From Bacillota bacterium (GTDB lineage: Bacteria > Bacillota > Clostridia > Acetivibrionales > JANLFN01), in the NCBI GenBank assembly GCA_030705825.1, contig JAUZPR010000010.1, positions 1-47,549 of the forward strand: a stretch of 47,549 bases of DNA. The letters run 5' to 3'. Positions 5,397-43,755 of this stretch are shown here, one piece after another; within the stretch, counting starts at the first letter, position 1; each line of letters starts with the position of its first letter. Both the position numbers and the translations under genes were made by a program. The notes under the pieces are model-generated. The model saw only the letters and a program-made list of their open reading frames with translations. It made no database searches and was not told the origin of the DNA.

Positions 5397-6794
5397 TTAC
5401 TTATAGTTAAATAAATTCTTATGAGACTTTGTATTTTTTTCAAAACTGCTGTTATAAACTGTGTTTCCAGTAAAAACCACCTTAACTGTTCGCAAAATAA
5501 GCTTTAAATCAAACAGCAGTGAAAAGTTCTTAATGTAGATCAAATCATATCTGAGCTTGTCCTCGGCAGAAGTATCATAGTTGCCCAAAACCTGTGCATA
5601 TCCTGTAATACCTGCTTTAACTACATTTCTCTGCTTATATTCGGGAATATCCTTTTCATACTGTTCTACAAAGTATGGCCTCTCGGATCTCGGTCCGACA
5701 ATACTCAAATCACCTTTTAGGACATTAAACAGCTGAGGTATTTCATCTATTCTGAACTTTCTTAAAAATTTTCCTAAAGGCGTGACTCTTGGATCGTCTT
5801 TGCCGGATATAACAGGCCCTGTCTCTTTCTCGGCTCCGTCGTACATGGTTCTGAACTTGTACATCCTGAATAGCTTATCCTTGTAGGTTACCCTCTCCTG
5901 AACGTAAATTATATTACCTCGGGAAGTACATTTAATACATAATGCAGCGATCAGGATAACAGGCAGCAATACAATTATTCCGACCGAAGAGAAGAAAAGA
6001 TCAAATATCCTTTTGAAAAATCTTTGTTCAATACTAAGGCCCAGCCTGTCTATCATAAAAGCCGGTACATCCTCAAACTGTACCAATCTCGTATTCATAA
6101 GAGATATCTCAAATAGTTGAGGAATAACATATACCACTTTCCCATGCATCAGGCACATATTACTGATCTGCATTTTCTGTTCATCCGTTAAACCAGGGCA
6201 TATCAATACTTCATCAACATTTTTTATCCTCTTTACAATCTTATCAATCTCAAGGGGTGAATAGACATACTTGATGCTTATATCAGATTTTTCAATGGTT
6301 ATACTTACCTTGTCGAATATATCCTCCATATTGTCGGAATACCCAATAATCATAAGCCTTTTAGCGCTGGAATACTTTTTCAGCAAGAAAATAAATGAAT
6401 ACCAAATTCCAAGCATTATAAACTGCAGCAGGGGTGCAACTAACAAGACACTTCTTGGGAAAGAAAATCCCTGGAGAAAATATGTTATTGTAGTTGTAAT
6501 TATACCAAGAAGAAAAACAACGAAAGTTATAGATAAGATAGAGTCATACAATGATTTTCTATAGAATCTGAGTATTCCATAAATATCAAAAAGAATCAAA
6601 GCAGAAATTGTAATGAACGGCATTGATTTTAGATATGGGGAAAAATTGTAACTTGGAAGTTGACCATTAAATTTTATCAAGAATGCAATAATATAGGCTA
6701 CATTTATCAATAAAAGATCAACAAGAACTATTATAATCTTATAAAATCTTATTAGATAATTAATCAGATTAGACATGTACCTCTCAAGCCCCAT
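5397..6794 (-). CDS. Polyprenyl-phosphate sugar-1-phosphate transferase (initiating)
   Basis: This 465-residue membrane protein starts glycan assembly by moving a sugar-1-phosphate from a nucleotide sugar to undecaprenyl phosphate. Four or five N-terminal helices (to about residue 140) and a cytoplasmic nucleotide-binding-like middle region precede the bacterial sugar transferase domain. That domain has a re-entrant helix (DLFFSSVGIIVLLPVILIAA), YKFRTM, DDPRVTPLGKFLRK, RIDEIPQLFNVLKGD and SIVGPRSERP. WbaP, WcaJ and the S-layer initiator WsaP share this plan. ATG 6794 lacks a clear ribosome binding site; ATG 6776 (MSNLIN) has GAGAGG very close and is an alternative. The gene is cut off from the main operon by the opposite-strand glycosyltransferase, so it probably has its own promoter in 6795-6860. 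Confidence 0.93.
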   Translation of the reverse strand: MGLERYMSNLINYLIRFYKIIIVLVDLLLINVAYIIAFLIKFNGQLPSYNFSPYLKSMPFITISALILFDIYGILRFYRKSLYDSILSITFVVFLLGIITTTITYFLQGFSFPRSVLLVAPLLQFIMLGIWYSFIFLLKKYSSAKRLMIIGYSDNMEDIFDKVSITIEKSDISIKYVYSPLEIDKIVKRIKNVDEVLICPGLTDEQKMQISNMCLMHGKVVYVIPQLFEISLMNTRLVQFEDVPAFMIDRLGLSIEQRFFKRIFDLFFSSVGIIVLLPVILIAALCIKCTSRGNIIYVQERVTYKDKLFRMYKFRTMYDGAEKETGPVISGKDDPRVTPLGKFLRKFRIDEIPQLFNVLKGDLSIVGPRSERPYFVEQYEKDIPEYKQRNVVKAGITGYAQVLGNYDTSAEDKLRYDLIYIKNFSLLFDLKLILRTVKVVFTGNTVYNSSFEKNTKSHKNLFNYK

Positions 6795-8687: not shown

Positions 8688-8709
8688 CACAATACACTTT
8701 CGTTTGCTT

Positions 8710-18885: not shown

Positions 18886-20450
18886 ATGTCCTCACCCTTA
18901 GAATTTAAATTCAAAGCATCTAAATAAGATGTCACATAATTTACATACACCTCTTGGTATCCATGTACCTTATTTAACCACTTGAGGCCTTTAGTTGAAT
19001 ATTCTTCCAAAAATGTTTCATTCACAATTCTACATAAACAATTATAAATCTCCTCTGTACTTTTTGCACGGATGAAAGGAGGTTCTTCTGCAAGGTATTC
19101 ATTTACATTATTTGATTTTTCGAGATTCATCAGAACAGGCTTTCCTGCCGCAAGCGATTCAAGAACACTTGTCCCATACCCTTCCATAACAAACTGGTCT
19201 GCCACAAGATTCGCAACCTGCTGGTATTTTCTAAGCAATAGTTTAGAACAAAGCTTTTGCCATATGATCTTTTCTTCTATACCCAGCTGCGATATCAAGA
19301 CCTTGGTCTTATTTACATCAGGCCCCCATTCCATAATAACCAACCTCCATTCAGGATGATCACATGAAAATTTATAAAAAGCCTTAATTAACCTGTCATT
19401 ACCTTTCCACTCCCATGATTGTCTGCAGACAGATAGAATAAAACGACGTCCACCATTCTTACTGCACCACTGCTTCCTTATATTTTCCTGTTCTCCCGGT
19501 GAATAGGTATCAGTGTCTATCATCATTGGAGCAAACCTGCATTCTGCATTAACATTCAAGCGCCTTATATATTCAGGATAATTTGTTTCGCAGAACAGTA
19601 GCTTACGGGCGCTTTTATATCCAGCCCTCATTAAGAAACCAAACAGGTTTTCTTCAAAAGGAGAAATGAATAAATCTCCACCTGTTGGAAAAACAACATA
19701 AGGCTTTGGGCAAAATATACCCATACTGATAGGGGCACCAGAGAGCTGTACAATATCATATCTGGCCATTGACAGAAGATATGGCCAATGTCCCATGTTT
19801 TGTGCCAGAAGAAAGGCCTTGTCATCAGGCAGATTAATTCCAAAAGCATCCTTATACAGTTCCTTTACCTCCTGAATTGCAGAGTAGCGTCCTTGATATT
19901 TGATTTGAAGCTCGTTATCATATGCTACTCTTCTTACATAATGAGGCTGACTCCACTCACTTTCGTACTGTAGGCCATCTTCATAAGATACACACTCAAC
20001 TTCAACATCCTCCCAAAAAGGACGGTTTAAAAGAAATGCATCAAAAAAACTGTCTTCTATGATAAGTTCCGCATTATATCCAAGCCTGCGCAAACACTTT
20101 ATAAAGTTGTAGGCATTGTTTGCAATATTTCCATAAAAGCCTATCCTTATATTTTTAGGATCTTTATTAGGCTGTGTAGAATCATGCGGTAAAATAACTG
20201 AATTATCACTGCTATTTGAAACAGAGCGGGCAATAGTCGCAATCACTAAATCCATAGGAACAGTATCACTTTTTAGCTTATCTAAAATGTTTATTTCTTT
20301 ACTGTTCTGTGCACTTAATTCATTTGGCAGAATTAAACCTTCGAAATCTTCCTTTGTAATAAAACCGGAAGTTTTATTCTCAATTTCACGATTAACGATT
20401 GGTAAAAAATATCCAACAAATATTGATTTAATAATTTTTTTCAATAACAT
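18882..20450 (-). CDS. Glycosyltransferase, GT-B fold
   Basis: This 522-residue protein carries IRIGFYGNIANNAYNFIK at about residues 115-132, the same GNIANNAY motif as the protein at 15138. The C-terminal lobe has FILSVCRQSWEWKGNDRLI and LVADQFVMEGYGTSVLESLA, where the final Glu lies in the nucleotide-sugar site. About 110 residues precede the catalytic domain, including an N-terminal hydrophobic segment (IFVGYFLPIV). I chose ATG 20450 because GGAGGAAGC lies 8 bases upstream. This gives a 23-base overlap with the fusion gene before it, whereas the longer open frame to 20498 has no such site. Translation coupling with that gene is likely. Confidence 0.78.
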   Translation of the reverse strand: MLLKKIIKSIFVGYFLPIVNREIENKTSGFITKEDFEGLILPNELSAQNSKEINILDKLKSDTVPMDLVIATIARSVSNSSDNSVILPHDSTQPNKDPKNIRIGFYGNIANNAYNFIKCLRRLGYNAELIIEDSFFDAFLLNRPFWEDVEVECVSYEDGLQYESEWSQPHYVRRVAYDNELQIKYQGRYSAIQEVKELYKDAFGINLPDDKAFLLAQNMGHWPYLLSMARYDIVQLSGAPISMGIFCPKPYVVFPTGGDLFISPFEENLFGFLMRAGYKSARKLLFCETNYPEYIRRLNVNAECRFAPMMIDTDTYSPGEQENIRKQWCSKNGGRRFILSVCRQSWEWKGNDRLIKAFYKFSCDHPEWRLVIMEWGPDVNKTKVLISQLGIEEKIIWQKLCSKLLLRKYQQVANLVADQFVMEGYGTSVLESLAAGKPVLMNLEKSNNVNEYLAEEPPFIRAKSTEEIYNCLCRIVNETFLEEYSTKGLKWLNKVHGYQEVYVNYVTSYLDALNLNSKGEDI

Positions 20451-22506
20451 AGCTAGCTTCCTCCGAAGGCCAAAAGAAGGTATCAGGCTCTTTTTCAATT
20501 CTGTTACTTATTGCAGTAACTTCAGCAAATACTTTAGACACATTTTCAGGAATATCCAGTTCAACGTGGGTTTTATTGGTGAAAACCGTGAACACGTCAT
20601 CAGAAGTAGAATTAAGCATATCATCATTAATACTCAAATGCTTATAGGTCCAGTTTCTTGACGTTGTACCTATTCGAACACTATAGCCTTTAACAGAGCC
20701 ATCTTTGACAGATGAATCCGACCACTTAAGACAAAGCCTTTTTAGCCTTATAATACCCTTCGTAAATATTCCAAATTCTATAATATCCGGGATTTCAGGC
20801 GGGTAACCTACTGCCTTTTCTGAATAGTAACCGGATACAAAACCTCTTTCCTTAGGCTCCAAAGCATCTACATACCCCTTAACCTCATTACCTAAAATAC
20901 CTTTTGTATAACTTGTTGCGGGTCTTATAAACCAACCAGTAGCCCTATACTTGTCCAGCTGGTATGGATTCTCAGCAATGTCTTCCATTGAAATTGGTTT
21001 ACCGGAACTATTTCTTGGAATTATTCCGTTTTTAAAGGCATCAGCATCAGCAATTACCCAGCGTCCGTCAACTATAACCTCTGTAATTATATGCTTGCCC
21101 AGATAAGTGATTTTAGCGTCCATACCTGCATATTTAAATAAATCCTCTAAGACCTTGGAAACATGGCCACACCTTCCCCTACCCGAAATCAAAATAGTAA
21201 GAGAATCCGGAAGACTCCCGTCGGGATTAAGCGGCTGTGCCACAGGGTCACGAAAAATGCTTCTCTGTACAAATGAAAGGATACTAACATACGCTTCCTC
21301 CTCACTTTCACAGCCGGTGACCAGTTCTTTCGATAAGGCCCTCAGAAATTCTTCCTGTCCAAGCCGTATTGACAACTTTTTATTATGCTCCAACAAATAT
21401 GATGGGTAGCTGTAAAAGCTTCCGTTACTTAAAACAGGTACTGCGCAGTCTTCTAAATAAACAGACTCAGTCCTGATAGGAACCAAGCTTTGTATAAATT
21501 TTATGGGAGACTCAAAATTAAATGACTTATCTGGCTTACTGAAAATACATTCCCAAACTGCCAGTTCATTCTGGTAAAATCCTGCGAATTTGGAATCTAT
21601 TTGCGGCTGAGTCCAGTCACAAACCAAGCCGGATTCTCCGGACCACTGAAAGTTGGTAAAACCAGCCTCTTCAGCCTCCTTTCCAAACTCTTCAGCACTA
21701 TAAGCTCTGGTAACACCACAGCTTGGAGGTATACTCCCCCCTAATAGCACTGCTTTTATATCATTTACAAGTGTATTTTTGTAATTATCATAGCAGTATT
21801 GAGTTATATACCCTATCATTTTTCTTCCGGATTCCCTGCTTAAAGCCAGTTTCAGGCACATGGTATCGGTTAGCATATCTGCAACCTGTTTACCTGCCTG
21901 ATTTATAATATATGAATATAATTCAAACTCCTGCCGTAGATCATTTATGATACCTTCTCCGATTGCCCTGCTCCAATAGGTATTATAGAGTGTAGACCTG
22001 CCTGCATTTCTTACATTCTCATTATCTGCTCCGCGTTCATTAATCAGGTATTTGCTCCAACCATCCCCGTTCAGGCATACATATATCCGCCCCCCTGGTT
22101 TTAAGACCCTAAAAAACTCTTTCAATGTTTTTTCTATGTTTGTAAACATAATTACACTATAGCAAAAAACAAGGTCAAACTGATTATCGTCGTATGGAAG
22201 TATTTCAATAGAGCCTTCTTTCACACTGATATTACGTATATTCATCTTATCTTTAATTTTTTCAAGTATCGTAAGCCTGTCATTTTTCAAATCAATCGCG
22301 TGTACATCTGAGTATCTCTGAGACAGGGCAATAGTCCATTGTCCTGCACCGCACCCGGCATCTAAAGCACTCTGCCCCGAAAACATAAGTCTGTCAAGCC
22401 GCCTGAGATAATACTCCAGTCCAGGCTTGAATTCAAATTCCAGAAACTCTTTTTCATATTCGGATTCTGTATATTTAGAAATAATACTTAATGATGGAAA
22501 ATCCAT
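20428..22506 (-). CDS. Methyltransferase fused to a transglutaminase-like domain
   Basis: This 692-residue protein joins two enzymes. Residues 30-230 are a class I SAM methyltransferase: LDAGCGAGQWTIAL (motif I), HAIDLK, and FDLVFCYSVIMFT. Residues about 390-560 are transglutaminase-like with a full triad: Cys446 in GRGRCGH, His472 in LGKHIITEV, and Asp487 in RWVIADADAF. The last 120 residues look like a fibronectin type III-like beta domain. There is no signal peptide, so the whole chain should stay in the cytoplasm. The transglutaminase and C-terminal parts resemble the secreted protein at 24174-25478. The methyltransferase could cap a glycan, as WbdD does in ABC-exported O-antigens, but its substrate is unknown. 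AGGTGG precedes the ATG. Confidence 0.85.
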   Translation of the reverse strand: MDFPSLSIISKYTESEYEKEFLEFEFKPGLEYYLRRLDRLMFSGQSALDAGCGAGQWTIALSQRYSDVHAIDLKNDRLTILEKIKDKMNIRNISVKEGSIEILPYDDNQFDLVFCYSVIMFTNIEKTLKEFFRVLKPGGRIYVCLNGDGWSKYLINERGADNENVRNAGRSTLYNTYWSRAIGEGIINDLRQEFELYSYIINQAGKQVADMLTDTMCLKLALSRESGRKMIGYITQYCYDNYKNTLVNDIKAVLLGGSIPPSCGVTRAYSAEEFGKEAEEAGFTNFQWSGESGLVCDWTQPQIDSKFAGFYQNELAVWECIFSKPDKSFNFESPIKFIQSLVPIRTESVYLEDCAVPVLSNGSFYSYPSYLLEHNKKLSIRLGQEEFLRALSKELVTGCESEEEAYVSILSFVQRSIFRDPVAQPLNPDGSLPDSLTILISGRGRCGHVSKVLEDLFKYAGMDAKITYLGKHIITEVIVDGRWVIADADAFKNGIIPRNSSGKPISMEDIAENPYQLDKYRATGWFIRPATSYTKGILGNEVKGYVDALEPKERGFVSGYYSEKAVGYPPEIPDIIEFGIFTKGIIRLKRLCLKWSDSSVKDGSVKGYSVRIGTTSRNWTYKHLSINDDMLNSTSDDVFTVFTNKTHVELDIPENVSKVFAEVTAISNRIEKEPDTFFWPSEEASYVIEKNY

Positions 22507-22561: not shown

Positions 22562-24013
22562 TTATTTAAAAAATCTAGCCAAGCACTTTTTAAATAAATT
22601 ATTATTATCTTTAACGTATAAGTCGTTGATGACTTTACCATTGTATATAGTAATATTCCAATTAGGAAAATATCCTGGTACAACATTCCTAGGATATAAA
22701 CCAAGTGCATATTTACCATTAGGTAAGTAAACAGAATAAGTATTACCTTTTGGAATGGCATAATACATACATTTTTGAGGTTTGTCACCGCCATAAGGGA
22801 ATATTGCTATTATCAAGTTATCACCATATTGATTCTTGTATGCATTATTCATGCTATCATCAATTTTACCCTCTATCAGAAAATGCTCTTTTTTAAGGAT
22901 ATCCCAGGGTATGGATTTATCCAATACTGTAATATAATTCCTATACTGTATCCTTGAAGCTTCATTCAATTCATTTAGTTTAAATTGGAATAATTCATCA
23001 AATAAATTGTAACTTAATTCTATTGCTTCCTTCCAGCCTTTCATTTCACTGACAGGATTATTAAAGCAATTGATGGCTTGGTCAATAGGCATTGTTAAAA
23101 CAGGTGAAAGGCCGAAATCTAATTTTCTGGAGGCCGCAAAACGTATCAGTTCAGGGATATTAATAATATTTGCTTTCATTACAGACATCGTTATAGAAGT
23201 GAATGAATTAGGCTTCTTATTAGTTATCTCTATAAGTCTGTCTATATTATTTACAACATTTCCGAAATTACCATTAATTCTTACTTTTTCATAAACTTCC
23301 TTTGTTGCACCATCAAAGGAAACATTTAAAGCCAACGTTTTAAACTTATTCAAACTACTAAGAATTTCGTCTGATATTATGGAAGCATTCGTACTAGTAG
23401 CGAAATTCAAATATGGATTTATAGTTAAGTCAGATGATTTTAAGAATTCCTTCCATAATGGAATAATAAAAGGCTCTCCACCGCCAGCAACAATTCTTAC
23501 AAGAACCGGAATAAGTGATAATATTTCTGCAACGGCATCCTTACGCTGTAAACTTACTTCACGAGTACTATCCTGATAACAATGTATACACCTATAATTG
23601 CAAACATGAGATGGTGTTAAGGAAATGACTGTAGGTAAAGATTTCAACACACTTTTACCTTCTCCTATTTCCTGCTTTAGTTTTCTCATGTTTTTAGTAT
23701 ATTCAGTAGAAACAGGTTCCTCACTGTCAGAGTCAATATCATACCTTAAGTCCAAACCCACGCCCTGCTGTATCGCAAGACATTTGCTACAGCCAGCTTT
23801 CTCAAGATCACCTTTAGCCATATTATCTCTCAAATTCCTGTAGACATCGCTGTTCCAAATTTCTAACAAACTTTGTTTGTTCAAATTACCACACGGTGGA
23901 TTCACATTGCCATAAGCACTCCAATAACAGCATGGCACAACTGTTCCATCACTGTCAATAACCATCTGCTGCCAAGGTATATGGCATCTCGGTTTAGTAA
24001 TCTTATCGTCCAT
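22562..24013 (-). CDS. Radical SAM protein with N-terminal SPASM-like region
   Basis: This 483-residue protein has a cysteine cluster at its front that looks like a SPASM domain: Cys10 in KPRCHIPW, Cys28-Cys29 in VVPCCY, Cys41, and Cys75/Cys78 in GCSKC, with GNLNKQSLLEIW between. The radical SAM core follows, with Cys138, Cys142 and Cys145 (CNYRCIHC) for the SAM-bound cluster and AGGGEPF near 177. SPASM normally follows the core, so the order is reversed. The last 70 residues look like a small beta domain (YLPNGKYALGLYP). SPASM enzymes modify peptides, proteins or sugars by radical chemistry; the substrate here is unknown. I chose ATG 24013, with AGGAGGT 9 bases upstream. A separate promoter is predicted at 24070-24098. 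Confidence 0.88.
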   Translation of the reverse strand: MDDKITKPRCHIPWQQMVIDSDGTVVPCCYWSAYGNVNPPCGNLNKQSLLEIWNSDVYRNLRDNMAKGDLEKAGCSKCLAIQQGVGLDLRYDIDSDSEEPVSTEYTKNMRKLKQEIGEGKSVLKSLPTVISLTPSHVCNYRCIHCYQDSTREVSLQRKDAVAEILSLIPVLVRIVAGGGEPFIIPLWKEFLKSSDLTINPYLNFATSTNASIISDEILSSLNKFKTLALNVSFDGATKEVYEKVRINGNFGNVVNNIDRLIEITNKKPNSFTSITMSVMKANIINIPELIRFAASRKLDFGLSPVLTMPIDQAINCFNNPVSEMKGWKEAIELSYNLFDELFQFKLNELNEASRIQYRNYITVLDKSIPWDILKKEHFLIEGKIDDSMNNAYKNQYGDNLIIAIFPYGGDKPQKCMYYAIPKGNTYSVYLPNGKYALGLYPRNVVPGYFPNWNITIYNGKVINDLYVKDNNNLFKKCLARFFK

Positions 24014-24069
24014 AATTGAGGAACCTCCTAAACTCATTTATACAGCCAGCTAATTAAATCATCAGATTT

Positions 24070-24173: not shown

Positions 24174-25478
24174 CTAATTTTTAAGCTTTATTTCACTTGA
24201 CATGTAGTATAGTTTTTTACCTACCTCTTCTCCATGCTTGTCAAAAGGAGTCACCGTTATATAATATGTTTTTCCCTTTGGTACATTTATTGTTATACTA
24301 GTATCTAAGGTTTTGATATTTGCAATGTCACTAGGAGGTAAGCTGAACAATTTATCGTACATGGATGGTTTCCAACCCAAAGATGAAGCCCAATATATTT
24401 TACAACTAGTGCTGCCTTTAAAGTCATTATAATCCCAACCCCGGGAGTGCATGGAAATATATACATCATAGCCAATTAAATCATTATCTTTATCAATCGA
24501 CGCATTCAACTCCAACCTAAATTTGCTCGAACTAATTTTACTGATACTTTTTATCATTGTAACATATGGCTGATACTTAACACTAAAATCATAAATCTTT
24601 ATATTACTATCGGGAATGTATTTAACGGTATTCCATCCATAATATTTATTTTTAACATCACCTGTTTTGACATAATAACAGGGAGCATGAGTATATGCAT
24701 ATTGGGAAAAGTAAAAATAAGACGGATATACTGCATATGGCACAACGTCATCAATACCTCTATTTTGTTCAACTGTTCCTTTGTAATCAAGTTCATAATA
24801 TGCTGGAAGTGAATCAACTAAAAAAGGTTGCTTACTAAGTTCAACAATTGAAGGTATCTTTTTATTTATCAGGACTGTTTGGCTTCCACCGAAAATATCT
24901 GCATCAAAAAAATGCCAGCCATTATCGTAATATATCTCCGAAACTATGTGTCCGCCAAGCCAAACCATTCTTGTGTTATATCCAACAGAATCGAATAAAT
25001 CTGCTGCTACTGCATTCACCTGCCCACAGCGCATTTCACCCAATCCCAGTAAAACCAATGGGTCGGTAACCATTGTTCTATCCCTGTACATAGGCTGTAT
25101 ATCATTATGATAGCTGCTCTTGTACAAAAAACGCAAAACCGCCAGTTGTTTATCTGTATTGTTTGTACAGTTCTTTGTAAGTGTATTGAATATATATGAC
25201 AGTGCAGTTTTTCTGTCAACATTCTTCAGTTTTTTTTCGACTGATTCAAGCTTATTGAAATCGTAATCATATACTTTATCAATTTTATCAATTGATTTGC
25301 CAATTCGTACCGGAGACAAATCCGGGTTTGTGTAATCACTTCCCTGAATCTCAAATCTGTATATGTTTAAATTATTAATATACTCATTTGTTCCATTATT
25401 TAAAACCGCCGCCTGGCTGTTAAAGAACCCCAGAACCAAGGATAATGAACATAATAAAACAATATGCTTTATTTTCAT
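24174..25478 (-). CDS. Secreted transglutaminase-like protein
   Basis: This 434-residue protein starts with a signal peptide (KIKHIVLLCSLSLVLGFF, cleavage likely after SQA). Residues 90-230 form a transglutaminase-like domain with the triad Cys151 (GEMRCGQV), His177 (LGGHIVSE) and Asp192 (HFFDADIF). The C-terminal 120 residues look like a fibronectin-type beta domain and contain SRGWDY, which parallels SRNWTY in the fusion protein at 20428. Such domains can cross-link, cleave or transfer amide bonds, so it may act on cell-wall protein or peptide outside the membrane. I chose ATG 25478, with GAGGAG 9-10 bases upstream; ATG 25502 overlaps the previous gene but has only a weak site. Enzyme activity is not proven by sequence. 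Confidence 0.82.
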   Translation of the reverse strand: MKIKHIVLLCSLSLVLGFFNSQAAVLNNGTNEYINNLNIYRFEIQGSDYTNPDLSPVRIGKSIDKIDKVYDYDFNKLESVEKKLKNVDRKTALSYIFNTLTKNCTNNTDKQLAVLRFLYKSSYHNDIQPMYRDRTMVTDPLVLLGLGEMRCGQVNAVAADLFDSVGYNTRMVWLGGHIVSEIYYDNGWHFFDADIFGGSQTVLINKKIPSIVELSKQPFLVDSLPAYYELDYKGTVEQNRGIDDVVPYAVYPSYFYFSQYAYTHAPCYYVKTGDVKNKYYGWNTVKYIPDSNIKIYDFSVKYQPYVTMIKSISKISSSKFRLELNASIDKDNDLIGYDVYISMHSRGWDYNDFKGSTSCKIYWASSLGWKPSMYDKLFSLPPSDIANIKTLDTSITINVPKGKTYYITVTPFDKHGEEVGKKLYYMSSEIKLKN

Positions 25479-25498
25479 CGGGTTAAAGCTCCTCTTAT

Positions 25499-26374
25499 TC
25501 ATTGTTCTTCTTTTATTCTAATGTCTCTTAATAAATCCGTTAATAAAGGTATATCAATTATATCCTGATTCCTTAACACCGTCAGCTTTGACAGCCTTTC
25601 TAACGTTTCGTCGGGGAAAACCGGATTTTTGGCAGTATACGGACTCCCATCAGACATACGGTGAACACACCAGTGCTGATATATAATTGTATACCCCTCC
25701 TGCGCAATCAAGGCGGATAAATTCTCCTCCGACAGCTGCTTCCCCAATGAATAAGCATCCGGTGCCTTGGGTAAAAGGCCCCTGTAGCGGTTGAAAGTTA
25801 GTATTTTGTGTCCGGACCTTGTAACTACCGGTTCAAGTAGCTGTGTGCCGGATTTTTCCTTAATATTGAAAACAAAATTATTGATTAAATTTGTATCGGT
25901 ACAATAAAAATGAACTCCGTATTGAAGCAGTAAATCTAGTATATAACAGTCAGAAACAGGATCGTCGCCTTTTTGATATGTAGGAGCTTTTCCTCCTATA
26001 TTTTGTATATCCCCTTCATCACCATGATTTGTCCAGATTTCAGGCACTCTGGCGTATTTTTTAAGATATTCCAGTCCTTCGGCTATCAGTTCTCTATTGG
26101 GTATTTGTGTAGTGTTTGTTATGTCAAAATTGCCTGCGCTGTGCAAAATAGCGAAATCATCCGACATTATTCCTTCAAGAATCTCGTCATGCTTTGGGCC
26201 TTTTTCCTTGATGCTTCCCTTGAACAGGGCCATTTTAGACCCAGTAGGATCAAAGAGCCAGAATGAATCCTGTGCCCTAATACCAAAGTCGTTAAAAAGA
26301 ACATTATGGACTTCTTTATATGAATCCCAGGATGCAAAATCTATGTCATTACAAAAAGTTATCTGTGCCCTCAT
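25499..26374 (-). CDS. Possible polysaccharide deacetylase-like protein
   Basis: This 291-residue protein shows motifs that resemble the NodB/CE4 deacetylase fold: TFCNDIDF at the front (where CE4 enzymes have TFDDG), [19 protein letters not shown] and YQHWCVHR near the C-terminus, rich in His and Asp as a metal site would be. CE4-like WbmS proteins occur in O-antigen clusters, and this may be one, but the match is by eye only. No signal peptide is visible, so it would work on a cytoplasmic intermediate. The ATG overlaps the previous stop as ATGA, with GGAAGG 7 bases upstream. A different carbohydrate-active function is possible. Confidence 0.5.
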
Positions 26375-27711
26375 TTTAAAGCCTTCCATATAACCGGCTG
26401 TTCAAAAACAACCCATTGTGTCAAACCCTCACGTTGTACAGAAACTGCCCATCGCTTCCACTTCACATCAAAATATTCATCCACTGTATTGCAATCACCT
26501 CTGTTTGGAGTAACACCAAGTGTGATAAAATATCTCCCCGCACCTAAAAAAAGCGAAGGTAGGTCCACCTCAACAACATTGATACCTTTGGAAACAGGTA
26601 TATCTATATGGGTTTCATTCCCATCAGGTTTAATAAACGCATATGAAGCAAATGAACAAGCTACCCTTGCATCCTCTGTTATAAACTGGACACTTAAACC
26701 TATGCTTTCCTTATCAATTTTACTGTCAAGAGTTATTTTAAGTTTATATTGTTTTCCAACTGTTAAAATATTGGTACTATTTAACTCGCTGTTTAAAATT
26801 TCAAAATCAATAATTCTAACCTCACCGGTCCCTATCAATTCATTACTTTTATTAAGTATATTACTTGAAGTCCTCTTTTCTCCTTCTTCTGCTTGAAATG
26901 TATTCTCCTTATTGAGCTTCTTTTTTTCAACCTTTTCTGCATTCTTATCACATCTTTGCTGCAAGCTTTTTTGATCCGAGGTTAACCCTGCTAGCTCATA
27001 AGCCTTGCAAACCTCATGTGATCCACCATGCATAATAATTTGTCCATTTTCGATCCACATAACAGTCCTGCAAAATCTTTCAATCATGGAAAGGCCATGC
27101 GATACAAACAGTACCGTAGCACCGCTGTTACATATTTCCTCTATCCTTCTGATACATTTTGATACAAAAAACTGGTCCCCTGCGGCTAAAGCCTCATCAA
27201 CAATGAAAATATCAGGGTCGACGCTTATTGCAACAGAAAAGGTCAGTCTTGCCTGCATACCACTTGAATAGGTTTTAAAAGGCTGGTCAATTACATCTTC
27301 AAGCTCACTGAACTCAATTATATCATCAATTTTATTATTGATTTCTTCCTTGCTCATCCCAAGGCACAGCCCGCCCATATATATGTTCTCTCTGCCTGTA
27401 CAGTCGGGATGAAAGCCTGTTCCCAGCTCAAGTATAGCGGAAATCTTACCGTTTACTTTTACTGACCCGTTTGTTTTATCAAGTGTACCTGCCAAAATTT
27501 TTAATAATGTACTTTTACCTGCACCGTTTCTTCCAATAACTCCTACAACTTCACCGCGGGGAACCTGAAACGATATGTCCCTTAACGCCCAGAACTCCTT
27601 ATATTTTGGTTTTCTGGTTATTATCTCAAGAAACATCTCTGAAGGCTTTTTATAAACCTTATACATTTTTGACAAGCCTTTAACATCAATTGCAATCTCT
27701 TTTTGAGGCAT
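26371..27711 (-). CDS. wzt: ABC transporter ATPase for polysaccharide export (Wzt)
   Basis: This 446-residue protein has the ABC set: Walker [10 protein letters not shown] (60-68), signature YSSGMQARL (148-156), Walker [10 protein letters not shown] (167-175) and the switch His in LFVSHG. About 60 charged residues link it to a beta-rich C-terminal domain (from about 300) of the Wzt C-terminal type, with [21 protein letters not shown] and [14 protein letters not shown]. In the E. coli O8/O9a systems that domain binds the capped end of the glycan and gives export its specificity. Its start shares one base with the stop of the permease gene, as usual for subunits made together. Confidence 0.93.
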
Positions 27712-28541
27712 TACAATACACTCCCGAACATCACTTTTAGCTTTTTAAAAATTCTATATCCAAAATAAAACAAAACACAGCTTACTACAGATACAAATAT
27801 CCACGCCCACCAATGCATGAACCTACCAAAATAAAGCGTATCCTGGTATACCCACATATAATAGCTGAACGGATTTAAATAAAGTAAAGGTCTGAAAAGC
27901 TGCGGTACACTTTCAGGAAGATATACAACAGGAATAAGATATACTCCTGCGACACAAAAAACCTGAACAAAATCCTTCATATCCCTGAAATATGCCCCTA
28001 CCGCAGAAAGCACATAGCTTATCCCTATCATAGTCACTGTTTGTATTAAAATGACCAAAGGCAAAAGACAGTATGTCCACAACAAACCATGATGTGAAAA
28101 AAGGACATATATAATAAGGATTATAAAATATATGACCATTGTAAACATGGAAGCTATTGCCCCTTTGATAGGGAGTATCTCAATAGGGAAAACAACCTGT
28201 TTGACTAGATTGGCATTAGATGTAATGGCAACACTGCCTTTTGACATTGATTCCTGAAAACTCATCCATGGTATCAAACCGCTTAGCAAATATGTGGTGT
28301 AATCTAAAGGCATTGCAACAGTACCGCCTATTTTTATCTTAAATACCACAACGAATACAAAAGTATAGACTGCCATAAGTGTAAGCGGATGCCCGAACGC
28401 CCAGAACACTCCCAGGAATTGTCCGCGGTATCTGTCTGTTATATCTCGCTTTGCCATCTCAATGGTCAGCTGTCTGTGTCTGGTAAGTAGGCCCATCAGG
28501 TCCTTTAAAGCTCCATAGTGGCTTTTTATATTTCTAAACAA
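27711..28541 (-). CDS. wzm: ABC-2 type polysaccharide export permease (Wzm)
   Basis: This 276-residue membrane protein has six predicted helices and the amphipathic N-terminal segment [20 protein letters not shown] typical of Wzm/TagG permeases. It forms the channel through which lipid-linked glycan crosses the membrane, powered by the ATPase encoded next. The start appears to be TTG at 28541 with GAGGTG 6 bases upstream. Because the exporter is of the ABC type, the glycan should be finished on the cytoplasmic side. This agrees with the absence of a Wzx flippase or Wzz length regulator in the window. Confidence 0.93.
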
Positions 28542-28575: not shown

Positions 28576-30453
28576 CTACAGGTACTCTTTGCACCAGAGT
28601 TCAAAGTTTAAAAGCGACCAGATAAAGAGTCTCCGGTTTTGTTTTCCTTCAAAGTGTTCATCAAGAAGATTACTTATAGAATCCCTGTCAAAATAATCAT
28701 ATATATTTGCATGTTTATTGCAAAGTATATTTTTAACATATTCTATACTTTCGCCTCTGAACCATGAGGCGTCTGGTGCGGAAAAACCTTGTTTCACTGC
28801 ATCTGTAACTTGTTTTGGTATATAACGTTCCATTAATTTCCTTAATATTAATTTACCATCTCTTGTTTTCTGAAAGTACTTATTCGTTTTGCTACCAGCC
28901 TCATTTTCATTTATACGTACTACATCCTGCAGATTTTTGAGTTTATATTTTATAGGTATTTTTGTTGCAAAATCAACCAGGTCATTATCCAAAAAAGGTA
29001 CCCTGGTTTCCAGACTATGAGCCATACTGATCTTGTCTTCAATTACCAATAATCCGTGCAGGAAGGTCTTCGCCTCAAAATATAAAGAGTAGTTGATATA
29101 ATCCTCAGGAGTATTTACTTTCCCAAGAGGTTTTTTAAAAACATCCTTGAATATATCCCTTGTCCAAACATGCTTCACATTACCCCATATAGGTCCGAAT
29201 ACCTTTTGTATATCCTTGTTGGGAATTAGTCTCTGCCAAAAAACATAATATTTATCTATGTAATCCTCAAAATCATTGTTAACAACTGCCCGGTAGTATC
29301 TCCACGGATACCCGCCAAAGAGCTCATCTCCACCGCAGCCCGACAGTACAACCTTCACGAATTTTGAAGCAAGCTGGGCAGCATAGAAATTAGGATAGCT
29401 TTGCCCTACCCTTGGTTCTTCAAGGTGCCAAACCAGGCTTTTCATAACTCTTTCCATATCCCCGGCCTTAAGAACCATTTCATAGTGCTCAGTTTTAAAA
29501 AGATAAGACATCAGCTCAGCCTGTTCCCTTTCATCGAAGGAAAGCTCCAATCCGGATGCCGAATTGAGGTCAAACCCACAGGTAAATGTTTTGATATATG
29601 GTAATTGGGCAGCTGCAATAGCAGTTATAGATCCCGAATCCATGCCGCCGCTTAAATATGAGCCAATATCAACATCACTTACCAGTTGTCTGCTTACTGC
29701 CTGCCTGAACAGCCGATCAAGTTCTTCTACATATTCCTCTTCTCGGTACGTGAATTCAGGCTCAGAAAATTCGAAGTCCCAGTACCTCTCTATATCCAGG
29801 CAGTTTTTATTACTCCCCAGGGGAATTTTTGCCCAACATCCAGCCGGCAGTATTTTTACTTCTTTAAGTAGTGTCTTATCAGTAAATATATTCTGGAATG
29901 TAAAATACTCTATAAGTGCCTCATGATCGATTTCCTTTTTGACTGAAGGATGACACAATATGGCTTTTTGTTCCGATGCGAAAATAAAGCTGTTATTCTG
30001 GAAAGTATAGTATACTGGTTTTATACCATAGCGATCCCTTGCTATAAACAGTTCCTGGTTATGCTTGTCCCAAATTGCAAATGCAAACATACCGTTCAGC
30101 TTGTTTAAGCAACCGCTTCCCCATTGAGCATATGAAAGTAGAACAGCTTCTGTATCAGACTTGGAGTGGAATTGGTAACCCAAACTTTCCAACTCCAAAC
30201 GAAGCTGCATATAATTATACACTTCTCCATTATAAGAAATAATGTATCTACCGTCAGAGGTCATCATAGGCTGATGACCTGCAGGAGACAAGTCTATAAT
30301 AGCTAGCCTCCTATGCCCCAAACCTATAAAACTGTCTACAAAGAACCCTTCCCCGTCAGGTCCTCTGTGAGCAATACTATCGGTCATCTTTTTCAGTATT
30401 ACAGGGGATGCCGGTTCTCCGTTCATGTTAAAAATTCCAGCTATACCACACAT
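28576..30453 (-). CDS. asnB: Asparagine-synthase-like glutamine amidotransferase, copy 2
   Basis: This 625-residue protein has the glutaminase half with Cys2 (MCGIAGIFN), AHRGPDGEG and NGEVYNY, then the synthetase half with SGGMDSGS and LETRVPFLDNDLVDF. It differs from copy 1 at 9991 in the loop after SGG and in many other places, so the two are not recent duplicates. It is next to the epimerase and the exporter and lies just downstream of the WbpA-E-B-D set, so amidation of a uronic-acid sugar is a good candidate role. Ordinary asparagine synthesis cannot be excluded. The start is set by Cys2, with GGA 8 bases upstream. Confidence 0.9.
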   Translation of the reverse strand: MCGIAGIFNMNGEPASPVILKKMTDSIAHRGPDGEGFFVDSFIGLGHRRLAIIDLSPAGHQPMMTSDGRYIISYNGEVYNYMQLRLELESLGYQFHSKSDTEAVLLSYAQWGSGCLNKLNGMFAFAIWDKHNQELFIARDRYGIKPVYYTFQNNSFIFASEQKAILCHPSVKKEIDHEALIEYFTFQNIFTDKTLLKEVKILPAGCWAKIPLGSNKNCLDIERYWDFEFSEPEFTYREEEYVEELDRLFRQAVSRQLVSDVDIGSYLSGGMDSGSITAIAAAQLPYIKTFTCGFDLNSASGLELSFDEREQAELMSYLFKTEHYEMVLKAGDMERVMKSLVWHLEEPRVGQSYPNFYAAQLASKFVKVVLSGCGGDELFGGYPWRYYRAVVNNDFEDYIDKYYVFWQRLIPNKDIQKVFGPIWGNVKHVWTRDIFKDVFKKPLGKVNTPEDYINYSLYFEAKTFLHGLLVIEDKISMAHSLETRVPFLDNDLVDFATKIPIKYKLKNLQDVVRINENEAGSKTNKYFQKTRDGKLILRKLMERYIPKQVTDAVKQGFSAPDASWFRGESIEYVKNILCNKHANIYDYFDRDSISNLLDEHFEGKQNRRLFIWSLLNFELWCKEYL

Positions 30454-35667: not shown

Positions 35668-36732
35668 CTATACTGATATTCTTTCCATGTGCCAATTTAT
35701 AGTTTTAATTATGCCAGTTTCAAATTTCATTTCCGGCTGCCAATTCAATTCATTTCTTATTTTCGTTGAATCAACAGCATATCTTCTATCATGCCCCAAT
35801 CTGTCTTTTACAAATTTTATCAAAGTATCGGGCTTCCCGAGTTCTTTTAATATCAATTTTACTATTTCTAAATTAGTCTTTTCATTATTTCCACCAATAT
35901 TGTACACTTCCCCCGGCCTTCCTTCATGGAGGACTAAATCTATCGCTCTGCAGTGATCCTCTACATAAAGCCAGTCCCTTATATTCATTCCATCTCCATA
36001 TACCGGCAGTTCCTTGTCCTGCAATGCATTAGTAATCATTAAAGGTATTAATTTTTCCGGGTACTGACGCAGTCCGAAATTATTTGAGCAACGCGTAATA
36101 TTAATATTCAGTCCATAAGTTTTATAATATGCCCTGACAAACATATCTGCAGATGCCTTACTTGCAGAATAAGGACTATTTGGCGCTAAAGGAGAATTTT
36201 CATTAAAATATCCTTTATCTCCAAGCGAACCATACACCTCATCGGTAGAAATCTGTAAATACTTGTTCGAAGCCGATAGTTGGAAATCGGAAGTTTTCTC
36301 TGAACTCTGAACTCTTAACTCTGAACCGTTTCTAAGCCAATGTTTCCTGCAGGCATCAAGCAGAACCTGCGTACCCTCTACATTTGTTCTGACAAATATC
36401 CCTGGATCATTTATGCTGCGATCGACATGGGACTCTGCTGCAAAATTAACTACATAGTCAGGTTTATGCTCATTAAACAGCCTGTCCAGCAGTTTCGTAT
36501 CACATATGTCGCCTTTTATAAAACTATAGTTCTGATAATGTTCTATATCCTTTAGATTATCTAAATTACCCGAATATTTTAATGCATCAAGATTTAGCAC
36601 CTTATATCCCGGATACTTGTTTAGAAGGTATATAATAAAATTACTACCTATGAACCCTGCCCCGCCTGTTACTAGAATAGTTGGTGATTTATAATTTGTA
36701 GTTGATTGCTTGTATTCTTTCTTATTATTCAT
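35668..36732 (-). CDS. rmlB: dTDP-glucose 4,6-dehydratase (RmlB)
   Basis: This 354-residue extended SDR makes dTDP-4-keto-6-deoxyglucose, the branch point for rhamnose and for amino-deoxy sugars. It has VTGGAGFIGSNF, FAAESHVDRSI, the catalytic TDEVYGSLG (163-171), YSASKASAD and RCSNNFGLRQYPEKLIP. Just before the catalytic strand, residues about 134-156 form an extra stretch (NGSELRVQSSEKTSDFQLSA) coded in part by a four-unit heptamer repeat at 36300-36327. The loop is of variable length in the family, so the enzyme may still work. It is the last gene of rmlD-A-C-B. GGAG lies 7 bases before the ATG. Confidence 0.95.
   Translation of the reverse strand: MNNKKEYKQSTTNYKSPTILVTGGAGFIGSNFIIYLLNKYPGYKVLNLDALKYSGNLDNLKDIEHYQNYSFIKGDICDTKLLDRLFNEHKPDYVVNFAAESHVDRSINDPGIFVRTNVEGTQVLLDACRKHWLRNGSELRVQSSEKTSDFQLSASNKYLQISTDEVYGSLGDKGYFNENSPLAPNSPYSASKASADMFVRAYYKTYGLNINITRCSNNFGLRQYPEKLIPLMITNALQDKELPVYGDGMNIRDWLYVEDHCRAIDLVLHEGRPGEVYNIGGNNEKTNLEIVKLILKELGKPDTLIKFVKDRLGHDRRYAVDSTKIRNELNWQPEMKFETGIIKTINWHMERISV
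36300..36327. repeat. Heptamer repeat inside rmlB, four units
   Basis: Four tandem units (CTGAACT, CTGAACT, CTTAACT, CTGAACC) lie inside the reading frame and code for part of an insertion. A direct change in unit number would shift the frame, since 7 is not divisible by 3. Confidence 0.85.
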
Positions 36733-36756
36733 AAAGAAGCTCCAGCCTGTAGTAAT

Positions 36757-37311
36757 TTAAATAATATCTGCTTTCAAACAGCTTTTTAACGATAAGTCTT
36801 TTTCTGAAAATATTATATCACTAATATCATCCAATGGCCATTTAATCCCAATTTCAGGGTCATTCCATATTACTCCGCATTCATCGTCAGGATAATAGAA
36901 GTCTGTACATTTATAAGCAAACTCTGCTTCATCGGATAATACTAAAAAACCATGAGCAAATCCTGGAGGAATGTAGAACTGTTTTCTATTAACATCAGAA
37001 AGATTAACACCATACCATTTCTTATATGTACTGGAATCCCTTCGTAAATCTACTGCAACATCAAAAACTTCTCCTGAAATGACTCTTACGAGTTTACCTT
37101 GAGGATGACTCATTTGAAAATGTAAGCCGCGCAAAACACCTTTTGTAGATTTTGATTGGTTATCCTGCACAAATACCTCATTTATACCGGCAGCTTTAAA
37201 ATCATTAAAGTTATAAGTTTCCATAAAGTAACCCCGATTATCACAATGCATTTGAGGTTCGACAATTAATAGCCCATCTATTCCGGTCTCTATAAATTTA
37301 AATTGTCCCAT
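36757..37311 (-). CDS. rmlC: dTDP-4-dehydrorhamnose 3,5-epimerase (RmlC)
   Basis: This 184-residue cupin enzyme inverts C3 and C5 of dTDP-4-keto-6-deoxyglucose, the second step to dTDP-L-rhamnose. It has DNRGYFMETYN, VQDNQSKSTKGVLRGLHFQ (with the catalytic His in RGLHFQ), PQGKLVRVISGEVFDVAVD and YIPPGFAHGFLVLSD. Its length is normal for the family. It lies between rmlA and rmlB, 15 bases after rmlA ends, with GGGGGAC before the ATG. Its product goes to RmlD at 38206. Confidence 0.96.
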   Translation of the reverse strand: MGQFKFIETGIDGLLIVEPQMHCDNRGYFMETYNFNDFKAAGINEVFVQDNQSKSTKGVLRGLHFQMSHPQGKLVRVISGEVFDVAVDLRRDSSTYKKWYGVNLSDVNRKQFYIPPGFAHGFLVLSDEAEFAYKCTDFYYPDDECGVIWNDPEIGIKWPLDDISDIIFSEKDLSLKSCLKADII

Positions 37312-37325
37312 AGCTGTCCCCCATA

Positions 37326-38195
37326 TTAAAAACCCTCTGCTATCTGTAGCAAGTAATTACCGTAATCGGACTTGAGTAAGGATTTTGCCAATTTCAGTAA
37401 TTGATTTTTATCTATATACCCTTTTCTATATGCAATTTCTTCTAAACAGGCAATATATAAACCTTGCCGTTTTTGCACAGCTTCTACAAAATTACTTGCC
37501 TCAAGCATAGTGTTATGAGTACCGGCATCAAGCCATGCCATTCCTCTTCCCAGTAATCTAACATTTAACTTTCCTTTTTTAAGATAAATATTGTTGACTT
37601 CTGTAATTTCAAGTTCACCGCGCTCGGAAGGCTTAATATTCTTAGCAATTCTTACTACATCATTATCGTAAAAATACAAACCTGGCACAACATAACGGGA
37701 TTTTGGCATATCAGGTTTTTCTTCAATTGAATTTATCTTCCCTTTTTCATCAAAACCAAGAACTCCATAAGCCTCAGGATTATTCACATAATACCCGAAA
37801 ACTGTCGCGCCATCTTTTATTTGTGTAACTTCTTCAAGTATACCTCCAAAACCTTGGCCGTAGAAAATGTTATCACCTAGTATAAGACTTACATTATCAC
37901 TTCCTATAAAACTTTCTCCTATAATAAATGCATCAGCCAGCCCTCTTGGTAGTTCCTGTATTGCATAGCATATTTTAAGACCCAATTGATCTCCGTCTCC
38001 AAAAAGTTCTTTAAAAAAAGCGATATCCCTTGGAGTAGTAATAATAAGAATTTCCTGTATGCCTGCAAGCATAAGAACTGATAGAGGGTAGTAAATCATA
38101 GGCTTGTCAAATACCGGTAATATTTGTTTTGATATGGCCTTAGTGATTGGATATAGTCTTGTACCGGCACCACCTGCAAGAATTATTCCCTTCAT
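37326..38195 (-). CDS. rmlA: Glucose-1-phosphate thymidylyltransferase (RmlA)
   Basis: This 289-residue nucleotidyltransferase joins glucose-1-phosphate with dTTP, the first step to dTDP-sugars. It starts [20 protein letters not shown] and has [62 protein letters not shown] and [13 protein letters not shown], all hallmarks of the short RmlA form. Length is standard. It is followed closely by rmlC and preceded by rmlD. GGGGGAAAA lies just before the ATG. Confidence 0.97.
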
Positions 38196-38205
38196 GTTTT
38201 TCCCC

Positions 38206-39054
38206 CTATAAATAGAAAGACCTTAGATAATCTACAACTGCTTCTTTATATGACCGCAACTGTGTATAACCGTTAAGTCTTAAATAAAATTTTTCTAATC
38301 TTGAATTTTTCGGCCTGGCTGCAGGTCTATCCAACTGCTCAGATGTTATCGGTTCTAATTTTATATTTTTAAGTTTTAGATAATCAAGTAGCACAAATCT
38401 TGCAAGATCATACCAAGAACAATAATCTTCATTTGTTATATGATATGTACCATAATCCGAAGCCGAAATTAGCTCCAAAAGTGATTCTGCCAAATCTCTC
38501 GTATATGTCGGAGAGCCTACTTGATCAAAAACTATGGAAATTTCATTTTTATCTTTAGCCATTTTTAATATTGAATTGATAAAATTTTTACCATTTTGTC
38601 CATATAGCCAGGAAGTCCTGACAATAAAAAACTTGCTACAAATGGATTTTATAAAATTTTCACCTTCAAGCTTTGACCTTCCATAAACATTTATCGGATT
38701 TGTAAGGTCATATTCATAATATGGTGTACTTTTATATCCATCGTAAACATAATCAGAACTTATATATACTACAGGGACATTAATTTCATTGCATGCTATG
38801 GCTATATTTCTTGTCCCAAGAGCATTTACCTTGAAAGCATTTTCTATATCCATTTCACATCTGTCGACATCTGTATATGCTGCAGTATGAATGACTATAT
38901 CAGGGTTACTATTCTTTATATAATTTATAGTTCTTCCCCTATCTGTAATGTCTAAAATGTTGCTATTAATACCTGAAATATTATGTTTACTATTAAATAT
39001 CTCTTCAATATCTTTTCCCAACATTCCATTACAGCCTGTTATAAGTACCCTCAT
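38206..39054 (-). CDS. rmlD: dTDP-4-dehydrorhamnose reductase (RmlD)
   Basis: This 282-residue SDR reduces the 4-keto group to complete dTDP-L-rhamnose. It has the NAD(P) motif [37 protein letters not shown] with YGRSKLEGE (catalytic Tyr and Lys), [14 protein letters not shown] and [14 protein letters not shown] chose ATG 39054, which has GGAG 6 bases upstream; ATG 39060 is in frame but lies too close to that site. It is the first sugar-nucleotide gene after the O-antigen ligase-like gene, 34 bases further on, so the two are probably co-transcribed. Confidence 0.96.
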
Positions 39055-39088
39055 AGACATCTCCAGATAAATCTATTTGACCATCATT

Positions 39089-40960
39089 TTATATAGTTTT
39101 TAACTTTTTTTTCGTAGAGTTTCCTTTACTTAATTTATTGTTATTTTTAGCTTCCCCAGCAGGCTTTTCATCCTGTTTTCTGATCAATCTATTTACCGCC
39201 ACGCCAAGCCCAAATATAATCCAAAACACAGGCGCTACATCAATAACACTGTCGTTAAATATTCCTGCAAATACGTAACCAATACATGAGCATAAAATAC
39301 TAACACCTGTTATCTCCAACCAACTGGATATTTTACGTCGAAAGAACAATTTAAAGCCATCTGCAAAGTACATTAAGAATAGTATTAAAATAGCTGCCAA
39401 AGAAAGAATCCCAGTATTTATACCTATTTGAAGAAAGAAATTATGAGGCTTATCTACATAAGTACCTGAATCATTATAAGCATCTAATTTTCCTATAAAA
39501 TCATTTTGCGGAAAGTATAATGGAAAAGTATCAGGTCCATGACCTATCAGAATTGTATTCTTTAGCAATGGAATAGATCTTGACCATATAAAGCCTCTGC
39601 CTGAGCCTAAACTTTCCTGATTATTGAAACCGAATTTTTCAGGATACTCAATTGTTGTTGGTACTCCGTTATTGGCCAGCATTCTGAATCCATCCAATGT
39701 GTTACAGAATTCAAATTGATTACCCCCGATTTTAGCTGTGATAGCTCCAGTACTATTATTTATATCAAATTCATAGTTAGAATACTTAGGATCCTTAAAA
39801 GTAATTTTACGTAAAGTAGGATCATTATTTTGAATTATATCCAGTAGCTTACCCTGATCAAAATACTTAATCTGATTATTACTTGATTCAAGTTTTATTT
39901 GTGCTGTATTGGTTATAATGTCCATTTTGCTGCCTTGAAGCAAAATATTTTCTATTTTTATACCAGTATTTGCAGCAATAGCATCATTTGGTATTATAGA
40001 TTTTATTCTTGATAAAACCTTTCCATTTGAAATAACATTTATTCCAGCTAATAAAATGGTAAATCCGGCAGCAACTGCAATTAATATTTTATAATGTTTA
40101 ATAATCTGTTTTCTATAGAAAAATAGTAAAAATAGAAGTGAGAATACACTACCTACTATACCGGCTCTTGAGTTACATCCAAAAGTATTAAATAGCAGCA
40201 GTACTAAAAAAATGGATGAAAATATTCTGGAAAGAGGCTTTCTTGCACATATAATCAAGCCAATTGCGATTGGTAACAATAAAACAACATAACTACCTAC
40301 AAAATTAGAATTATCCAATGTTGAATAGACAGTGTGTGAACCTACAGTAAAATCAACAGAAGAAATCATTTTTCTTACACTGGGGGACATAATTAAGGAC
40401 TGACCGAATGAAGTATTAAAGAAGTCCAGACCAAAATATTGGAATAAACCAATTGTAAGAATTATTACTGAAGAAGGAACTAATGAATAAATTATAACCT
40501 TTAAGCTTCTTTCAGTATTAATTAAATTATAGGTTATCAATACTAAAAGCATATAGCTAAGTAATACAAACATTCCTTCGTATCTTCCAAAAAATCCCCA
40601 TAAAGCGACTTCTTTATATTGACTTATTAAGGTTGAGATTATTACTAAGACCGAATATATAATTATGGGTATTAGGAGCTTAGATTTTATTATTTCCAAT
40701 TTATTCGTTTTTAATTTGAAAATGAATATTATTAAAGCAATAGATGTGGCTAATAATAACCATACCATTTTATAATAGTTGAAAACATCGGTAACTATAC
40801 CTGAGCCAAGGACCTGTGCCTCGATACCACTTAAGCTATAGTACTTAAAGTAAACAATAAGAGGTATAACAGCTATTATAAATACCAGCGGCAATATATA
40901 AAATATATTGGAATCATTTATCTGTGCATTTTTATTTGACTTTTTTTTTACTTTACTCAT
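39089..40960 (-). CDS. O-antigen ligase/polymerase-like membrane protein (WaaL/Wzy_C)
   Basis: This 623-residue protein has about twelve membrane helices and the O-antigen ligase (Wzy_C) features: NTFGCNSRAGIVGS, GRGFIWSRSIPLLKNTILIGHGPD and KPHNFFLQIGINTGILS near residues 510-530. Between helices, about 150 residues (roughly 305-455) form a soluble, probably extracellular region that is larger than usual. Members transfer glycans from undecaprenyl diphosphate to lipid, protein or another glycan. As the exporter here is ABC-type, a ligase fits better than a polymerase. The S-layer-like genes just upstream make protein O-glycosylation (as WsaB in Geobacillus) a good guess. I chose ATG 40960, with AGGTG upstream. 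It heads the operon. Confidence 0.85.
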   Translation of the reverse strand: MSKVKKKSNKNAQINDSNIFYILPLVFIIAVIPLIVYFKYYSLSGIEAQVLGSGIVTDVFNYYKMVWLLLATSIALIIFIFKLKTNKLEIIKSKLLIPIIIYSVLVIISTLISQYKEVALWGFFGRYEGMFVLLSYMLLVLITYNLINTERSLKVIIYSLVPSSVIILTIGLFQYFGLDFFNTSFGQSLIMSPSVRKMISSVDFTVGSHTVYSTLDNSNFVGSYVVLLLPIAIGLIICARKPLSRIFSSIFLVLLLFNTFGCNSRAGIVGSVFSLLFLLFFYRKQIIKHYKILIAVAAGFTILLAGINVISNGKVLSRIKSIIPNDAIAANTGIKIENILLQGSKMDIITNTAQIKLESSNNQIKYFDQGKLLDIIQNNDPTLRKITFKDPKYSNYEFDINNSTGAITAKIGGNQFEFCNTLDGFRMLANNGVPTTIEYPEKFGFNNQESLGSGRGFIWSRSIPLLKNTILIGHGPDTFPLYFPQNDFIGKLDAYNDSGTYVDKPHNFFLQIGINTGILSLAAILILFLMYFADGFKLFFRRKISSWLEITGVSILCSCIGYVFAGIFNDSVIDVAPVFWIIFGLGVAVNRLIRKQDEKPAGEAKNNNKLSKGNSTKKKLKTI

Positions 40961-41000
40961 ATCCATTTCACCTGTCATTTGTATTATTCTGTTATCATAA

Positions 41001-43658: not shown

Positions 43659-43715
43659 ACTCTCAAATCCTCCTTGTGAGATTTTAATATTGGAAGCGGG
43701 CAAATCTACTTGCAA

Positions 43716-43755
43716 GTCGGGTTACGCCCTCTTCCGAATGTACGTATAACCAGAC
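43716..43755 (-). promoter_or_regulatory. Structured leader hairpin of S-layer-like gene 1
   Basis: In the minus-strand RNA GUCUGGUUA pairs with UAACCCGAC (one mismatch) around a loop that contains CGGAAGAGGGCG. The same stem and loop motif recur in the leader of gene 2 at 46709-46744. Nearer the start, UCUCA/UGAGA (with AAGGAGG in the loop) forms a second small hairpin in both. Confidence 0.6.

Follow-up and report, generated by a model that had tools for sequence, protein, structure and literature searches.

A gene in the 47,549-nucleotide window (the whole stretch of DNA that was analysed) encodes one chain in which a class I SAM-dependent methyltransferase is followed by a transglutaminase-like (TG) domain and an Fn3-like domain. 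This fusion is a real, rare and functionally unexplained pairing, and it represents a new combination of known domain families rather than a new kind of system. Tentatively, and with somewhat less than even confidence, we read it as a cytoplasmic bifunctional glycan-tailoring enzyme that would pair methylation with Cys-His-Asp acyl chemistry before export. The preliminary description of this DNA had named no established function for the fusion, and likewise a literature search found no description of a methyltransferase-TG fusion. The features discussed below are collected in Table 1.

Table 1. Features of the fusion gene, of the surrounding glycan cluster and of the second fusion
Feature	Position	Strand	Basis or remark
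Fusion gene (methyltransferase + TG-like + Fn3-like, 692 aa)	20428..22506	minus	ORF call, coding potential, Pfam
Class I SAM-dependent methyltransferase core, residues ~43-144	22075..22380	minus	Pfam, AF2, Foldseek, PDB
TG core, residues ~389-488	21043..21342	minus	Pfam, AF2 topology, Foldseek
Cys446 codon, candidate nucleophile	21169..21171	minus	codon check, alignment
His472 codon	21091..21093	minus	codon check, alignment
Asp487 codon	21046..21048	minus	codon check, alignment
C-terminal Fn3-like domain, residues ~569-692	20431..20802	minus	VIA-align, alignment
Radical SAM protein, N-terminal SPASM domain, between the two TG genes	22562..24037	minus	profile search
Secreted relative, 442 aa, TG core + C-terminal domain	24174..25502	minus	signal/TM residues 14-32
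Wzt (with Wzt_C terminal-recognition domain) + Wzm ABC exporter	26371..28541	minus	Wzt_C 38.1 bits vs 30.4
AsnB-type amidotransferase	28576..30453	minus	second copy at 9991-11850
rmlB, rmlC, rmlA, rmlD (dTDP-rhamnose)	35668..39060	minus	four NCBIfam equivalogs above cut-off
Wzy_C (O-antigen ligase) domain membrane protein, candidate glycan ligase	39089..40978	minus	profile match
Polyprenyl glycosylphosphotransferase, priming enzyme	5397..6794	minus	profile match
Second fusion, G1547 locus L130, 515 aa (TM - TG - TM - class I methyltransferase)	8266-9810	plus	

The open reading frame of the preliminary description is present, although its location on the minus strand had been left unstated. It starts with ATG and runs from 22506 to 20428 in one coherent frame, while the plus strand across the same interval contains many stops. 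In frame, coding potential was positive in 6/6 blocks of 100 codons, and both other frames scored strongly negative; the GC3 was 0.36 in the methyltransferase half vs 0.34 in the TG half, and residues 230 to 462 are free of any ATG codon. A frame error, which had been proposed as a possible refutation, left no sign in coding potential or GC3; because the frame is continuous and both measures are normal across the junction, a frame error or chimera is unlikely. That the fusion is a singleton among the sampled Bacillota would fit an artefact of sequencing, frame or assembly, but with normal composition on both sides of the junction, an unbroken frame and no internal ATG between the halves, the chance of this is close to nil. 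The protein had also been described as lacking a signal peptide, and indeed neither a signal nor a TM segment is predicted, its cytoplasmic location being a prediction. At its 3′ end the gene is overlapped by a glycosyltransferase ORF (18882-20498), whose probable ATG at ~20450 leaves an overlap of ~23 bases; the arrangement suggests translational coupling of the two genes.

Both domains were recovered by Pfam above their cut-offs, which agrees with the fusion proposed from the letters alone. For the N-terminal domain, Methyltransf_11 (PF08241) matched residues 48-143 (E 3e-20, 73 bits vs a cut-off of 21.2), motif I (DxGCGxG) is present as LDAGCGAG at residues 48-55, and class I methyltransferases were matched both by Foldseek (E 1e-13) and among PDB entries (3MGG, E 7e-14). 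The AF2 model of this half shows a confident Rossmann core (pLDDT ~85-98 across residues 41-140), followed at residues 170-254 by a low-confidence region that contains long helices. SAM-binding motifs had been placed in residues 30-230; a methyltransferase is found there, but its core is confined to the shorter segment in Table 1. The window gave no sign of a second methyltransferase: the full-length query otherwise matched only the secreted relative, through its TG part.

Transglut_core (PF01841) matched residues 389-488 with 25.4 bits (E 1.8e-5) vs a cut-off of 23, and with 27.2 bits (E 5e-6) when the TG half was scanned alone. The positions given earlier for Cys446, His472 and Asp487 proved exact by codon check, and the three residues align with the Cys/His/Asp of peptide:N-glycanase (PNGase) in a weak profile match; PNGases made up the top 3/3 matches of the PDB profile search, at E 0.34. 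In the AF2 model of the TG half (residues 321-692), in which these residues are numbered 126, 152 and 167, the cysteine opens a helix (126-139), the histidine opens a strand (152-159) and the aspartate directly follows the next one (162-166), so that the order of predicted secondary-structure elements fits a TG core. Foldseek returned, at modest scores, 3kd4 and 3isr, two cysteine proteins of the TG-like kind, as well as mouse PNGase 2f4o (E 8e-4, TM 0.24). The domain had been drawn at residues 390-560; the triad does lie inside these limits, but the TG core occupies only ~389-488 and the remainder, 560-692, is Fn3-like. This C-terminal part matched Fn3 domains in VIA-align (Z ~10 over 90-100 residues), with a match list filled by the Fn3 part in which the TG core was hardly sampled. 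In a full-chain MAFFT alignment the TG rows fell on the methyltransferase, and each half was therefore modelled on its own; both models are of moderate confidence and rest on shallow alignments (mean pLDDT 66.8 for one half and 64.5 for the TG half, the latter with a five-row alignment and core values up to ~93).

A second protein with this TG module is encoded close by. The related domain noted previously at 24174-25478 is confirmed as related and as predicted to be secreted, but its ORF extends to 25502. Transglut_core scored 16.4 bits in this protein, below the cut-off, whereas its alignment with the fused module (27% identity, E 5e-14) covers the TG core and a C-terminal Fn3-like unit common to both, with the motif SRNWTY / SRGWDY in the Fn3-like domain. 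In the tree, the secreted relative pairs with a protein from Achromobacter pulmonis (45% identity over 361 columns, support 98/98), and the fused TG module stands alone at ~26% identity. A recent local duplication was considered for the secreted relative and rejected, given its placement with Achromobacter and its identity of only ~26% to the fused module. Judging from the sequences, lateral transfer of the secreted TG gene between phyla is likely, and the fused module and the secreted relative were probably recruited separately. The proposal that one domain is used on both sides of the membrane remains the simplest reading of the sequences, the two locations being predictions.

The stand-alone TG+Fn3 proteins, i.e., the secreted relative and its homologues in Thiosymbion, Gemmataceae and Achromobacter, carry the same TG and C-terminal domains as the fusion and, unlike it, no methyltransferase. 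Three of the four start with a signal/TM-like stretch, the N-terminus of the Thiosymbion protein being incomplete. The genes next to the Thiosymbion, Gemmataceae and Achromobacter homologues are unrelated and do not form glycan clusters. Other arrangements of TG domains were also observed: in a genome of the source order, a gene for a stand-alone, cytoplasmic-looking TG protein adjoins one for a beta-propeller-like protein, and loci in Planctomycetota/Lentisphaerota appear to combine propeller, TG and Fn3-like domain in one chain.

The fusion gene is flanked on both sides by the genes of a coherent glycan cluster. Apart from the genes in Table 1, the cluster holds a nucleotide-sugar (UDP-sugar) dehydrogenase, a Gfo/Idh oxidoreductase, a DegT aminotransferase, a hexapeptide-repeat protein, a formyltransferase and several glycosyltransferases. 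The dehydrogenase/oxidoreductase/aminotransferase/hexapeptide set presumably parallels the Wbp pathway, which leads to a diacetamido uronic acid. In its gene content the cluster resembles a glycan locus of the S-layer or O-antigen type, of the ABC-transporter kind, and the S-layer glycosylation (slg) set of rmlABCD, wzm/wzt, priming transferase and O-OTase candidate was found in the window. S-layer glycosylation clusters have been reported with the same make-up, and can include wsfA, an asparagine-synthase homologue (PMC2943079). Beside the cluster, at 41142-46652, two closely similar secreted Ig-like (Big_5) proteins of ~850 aa are encoded in tandem; they gave no match to the SLH domain, and are candidate glycan acceptors or S-layer proteins. 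The radical SAM/SPASM protein matched no curated family above cut-off, and may be another glycan-tailoring enzyme. A 296-aa protein (25499-26389) had no match in Pfam, NCBIfam or PDB; its NHGD and other motifs are, we assume, reminiscent of polysaccharide deacetylases. Anti-phage defence was considered and rejected: apart from generic hits of a methyltransferase to mad2 and of a radical SAM protein to viperin models, the window showed no such system.

Full-length and TG queries were run against ~1,990 genomes, including 2 of the source family, 58 of its order, 391 and 291 at class level and 398 of its phylum, in addition to 398 Pseudomonadota, 199 Planctomycetota, 91 Alcaligenaceae and 99 Desulfobacterota. 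As the larger groups were sampled evenly, the rarity of the fusion is an estimate. One further TG-methyltransferase fusion was identified, in a capsule-type locus (L130) of the Desulfobacterota genome G1547. In a collection of genomic contigs, the full-length protein retrieved no relatives and the TG alignment retrieved 17 loci, of which the best three were stand-alone TG+Fn3 proteins; on inspection, a methyltransferase was found in the ORFs of 0/17. Viral contigs, plasmids and phages yielded no TG relatives, the phage matches being generic methyltransferases.

The G1547 protein resembles the window fusion in joining a TG-like domain (with C, H and D present) and a class I methyltransferase (Methyltransf_23, E 1.5e-22) in one chain, within a capsule-type locus containing AsnB. 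Its TG part remained below the Pfam cut-off (15.5 bits) and reached 1.9e-8 with the family profile built here. It differs in that the domain order is reversed, the TG domain is predicted to lie outside the membrane and the methyltransferase inside, and no Fn3 domain was seen. Since both order and topology are reversed, this fusion arose independently, which supports a functional link between TG and methyltransferase domains in glycan loci; with two cases in ~1,990 genomes, the evidence is suggestive rather than conclusive. The neighbourhood includes Wzi, an RfaH-like antiterminator, AsnB and GT2-methyltransferase fusions, and its AsnB has the same best model (TIGR03108) as the window AsnB at 28576. 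The methyltransferases fused to GT2 glycosyltransferases in L130 (5609-8260 and 11907-13400) occur in both orders. The co-occurrence of AsnB, methyltransferase and glycan cluster is weak evidence, as these are commonly found together.

Multi-domain methyltransferases have been described as chain terminators in several ABC-dependent pathways: WsaE, whose methyltransferase domain caps the chain in an S-layer glycan cluster (PMC2943079), the O7 methyltransferase-kinase-CBM protein of K. pneumoniae (PMC11231755) and WbdD (PMC11231755; PMC3482155). Like the fusion, these are cytoplasmic multi-domain enzymes with an N-terminal class I methyltransferase, encoded in clusters with Wzm and a Wzt bearing a C-terminal recognition domain. 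Their second domain is a kinase or glycosyltransferase, whereas that of the fusion is TG-like. Terminators of the WbdD/WsaE type combine a methyl cap with a coiled-coil ruler; in the fusion, long helices appear in the low-confidence part of the model.

The glycan-tailoring reading is favoured because both domains and the triad are present in a gene inside a coherent glycan cluster, because the reversed, independent fusion also lies in a glycan-type locus with AsnB, and because ABC-dependent pathways offer precedents for terminators that combine a methyltransferase with other domains; against it, relatives of the TG module lack a known substrate and the stand-alone ones are found outside glycan clusters. 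In the reversed fusion, moreover, the two domains are predicted on opposite sides of the membrane; they need therefore not act in sequence, which argues against an obligatory hand-over of one intermediate. The substrate, reaction, order of steps and catalytic activity that we infer are as follows. The N-terminal domain would transfer the SAM methyl group to a lipid-linked surface glycan or nucleotide-sugar precursor; since the cluster showed no other methyltransferase, this domain may well be the one that adds a candidate terminal methyl cap, which may be read by the exporter bearing Wzt_C. The TG-like domain, together with the Fn3 module, would carry out a Cys-His-Asp acyl-enzyme reaction in which an amide or ester is formed, exchanged or cleaved at a carboxyl, carboxamide or N-acyl group of the same glycan, for example on a uronic acid or uronamide as expected from the UDP-sugar dehydrogenase and AsnB genes. 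After export, bonds of this type would be the target of the secreted relative.

Other functions have to be weighed against this one. The TG domain may instead act on a protein or peptide as a PNGase-like amidase, peptidase or cross-linker, for instance in trimming glycans on glycoprotein or releasing them from it, with the methyltransferase modifying that protein or glycan. This reading draws support from the PDB profile search, whose top three entries are PNGases with the triad residues aligned, from the Foldseek match to PNGase and from the two Ig-like proteins adjoining the cluster; the PNGase profile match is weak, however, and an exported glycoprotein would be out of reach for a cytoplasmic enzyme. 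PNGases, members of the TG-like superfamily, share with the fusion the motif order RCG-Cys, His, Asp, but this likeness is limited to the core, and the context of the fusion is one of synthesis, not breakdown; we know of no PNGase fused to a methyltransferase. Altogether, a protein or peptide substrate is rather unlikely. About as unlikely is a TG+Fn3 module that has lost catalysis and would only bind the glycan or hold it in place for the methyltransferase. Binding is a known role both of Fn3-like domains and of TG domains that have become inactive. The O7 terminator contains a CBM of unclear need (PMC11231755). Conversely, overall identity is ~25%, yet the whole triad and the RCG, H..E and D motifs around it have been retained, although loss of catalysis would predict their decay.

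A more specific alternative is SAM-activated amide formation, in which the methyltransferase would esterify the carboxyl group of a uronic acid and the TG cysteine would transfer the acyl group to an amine without ATP. A carboxyl methyltransferase and an acyl-enzyme transferase are an established pair in capuramycin biosynthesis, where CapS and CapW, two separate proteins, provide a methyl-ester-to-amide route, CapW being capable of direct transamidation too (PMC6384614, PMC10952241). The fusion shares with CapS/CapW this pairing of enzyme types, both of its domains are predicted to be cytoplasmic, and the nucleotide-sugar dehydrogenase would supply a carboxyl sugar. CapW, however, is a beta-lactamase-type serine transacylase rather than a TG-like enzyme, and acts on a small molecule. 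Moreover, the cluster already contains two ATP-dependent AsnB amidotransferases, nothing indicates carboxyl methylation by the methyltransferase of the fusion, and the domains of the reversed fusion are predicted on opposite sides of the membrane. We consider this route improbable. Its extension to a single-chain, SAM-driven acyl-transfer machine that would turn a methyl ester into a glycan amide, while outside the cell the secreted relative would remodel that bond, is more doubtful still.

Bacterial TG-like domains are numerous and mostly lack known substrates. Two independent fusions in distant phyla point to a concrete class of candidate substrates for such domains, namely lipid- or nucleotide-linked sugars with carboxyl, amide or N-acyl groups. 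If the glycan-tailoring reading is true, TG-like chemistry would extend from proteins to the cytoplasmic tailoring of polysaccharides, and the methyltransferase enzymes of ABC-dependent glycan pathways would gain a new kind of second domain.
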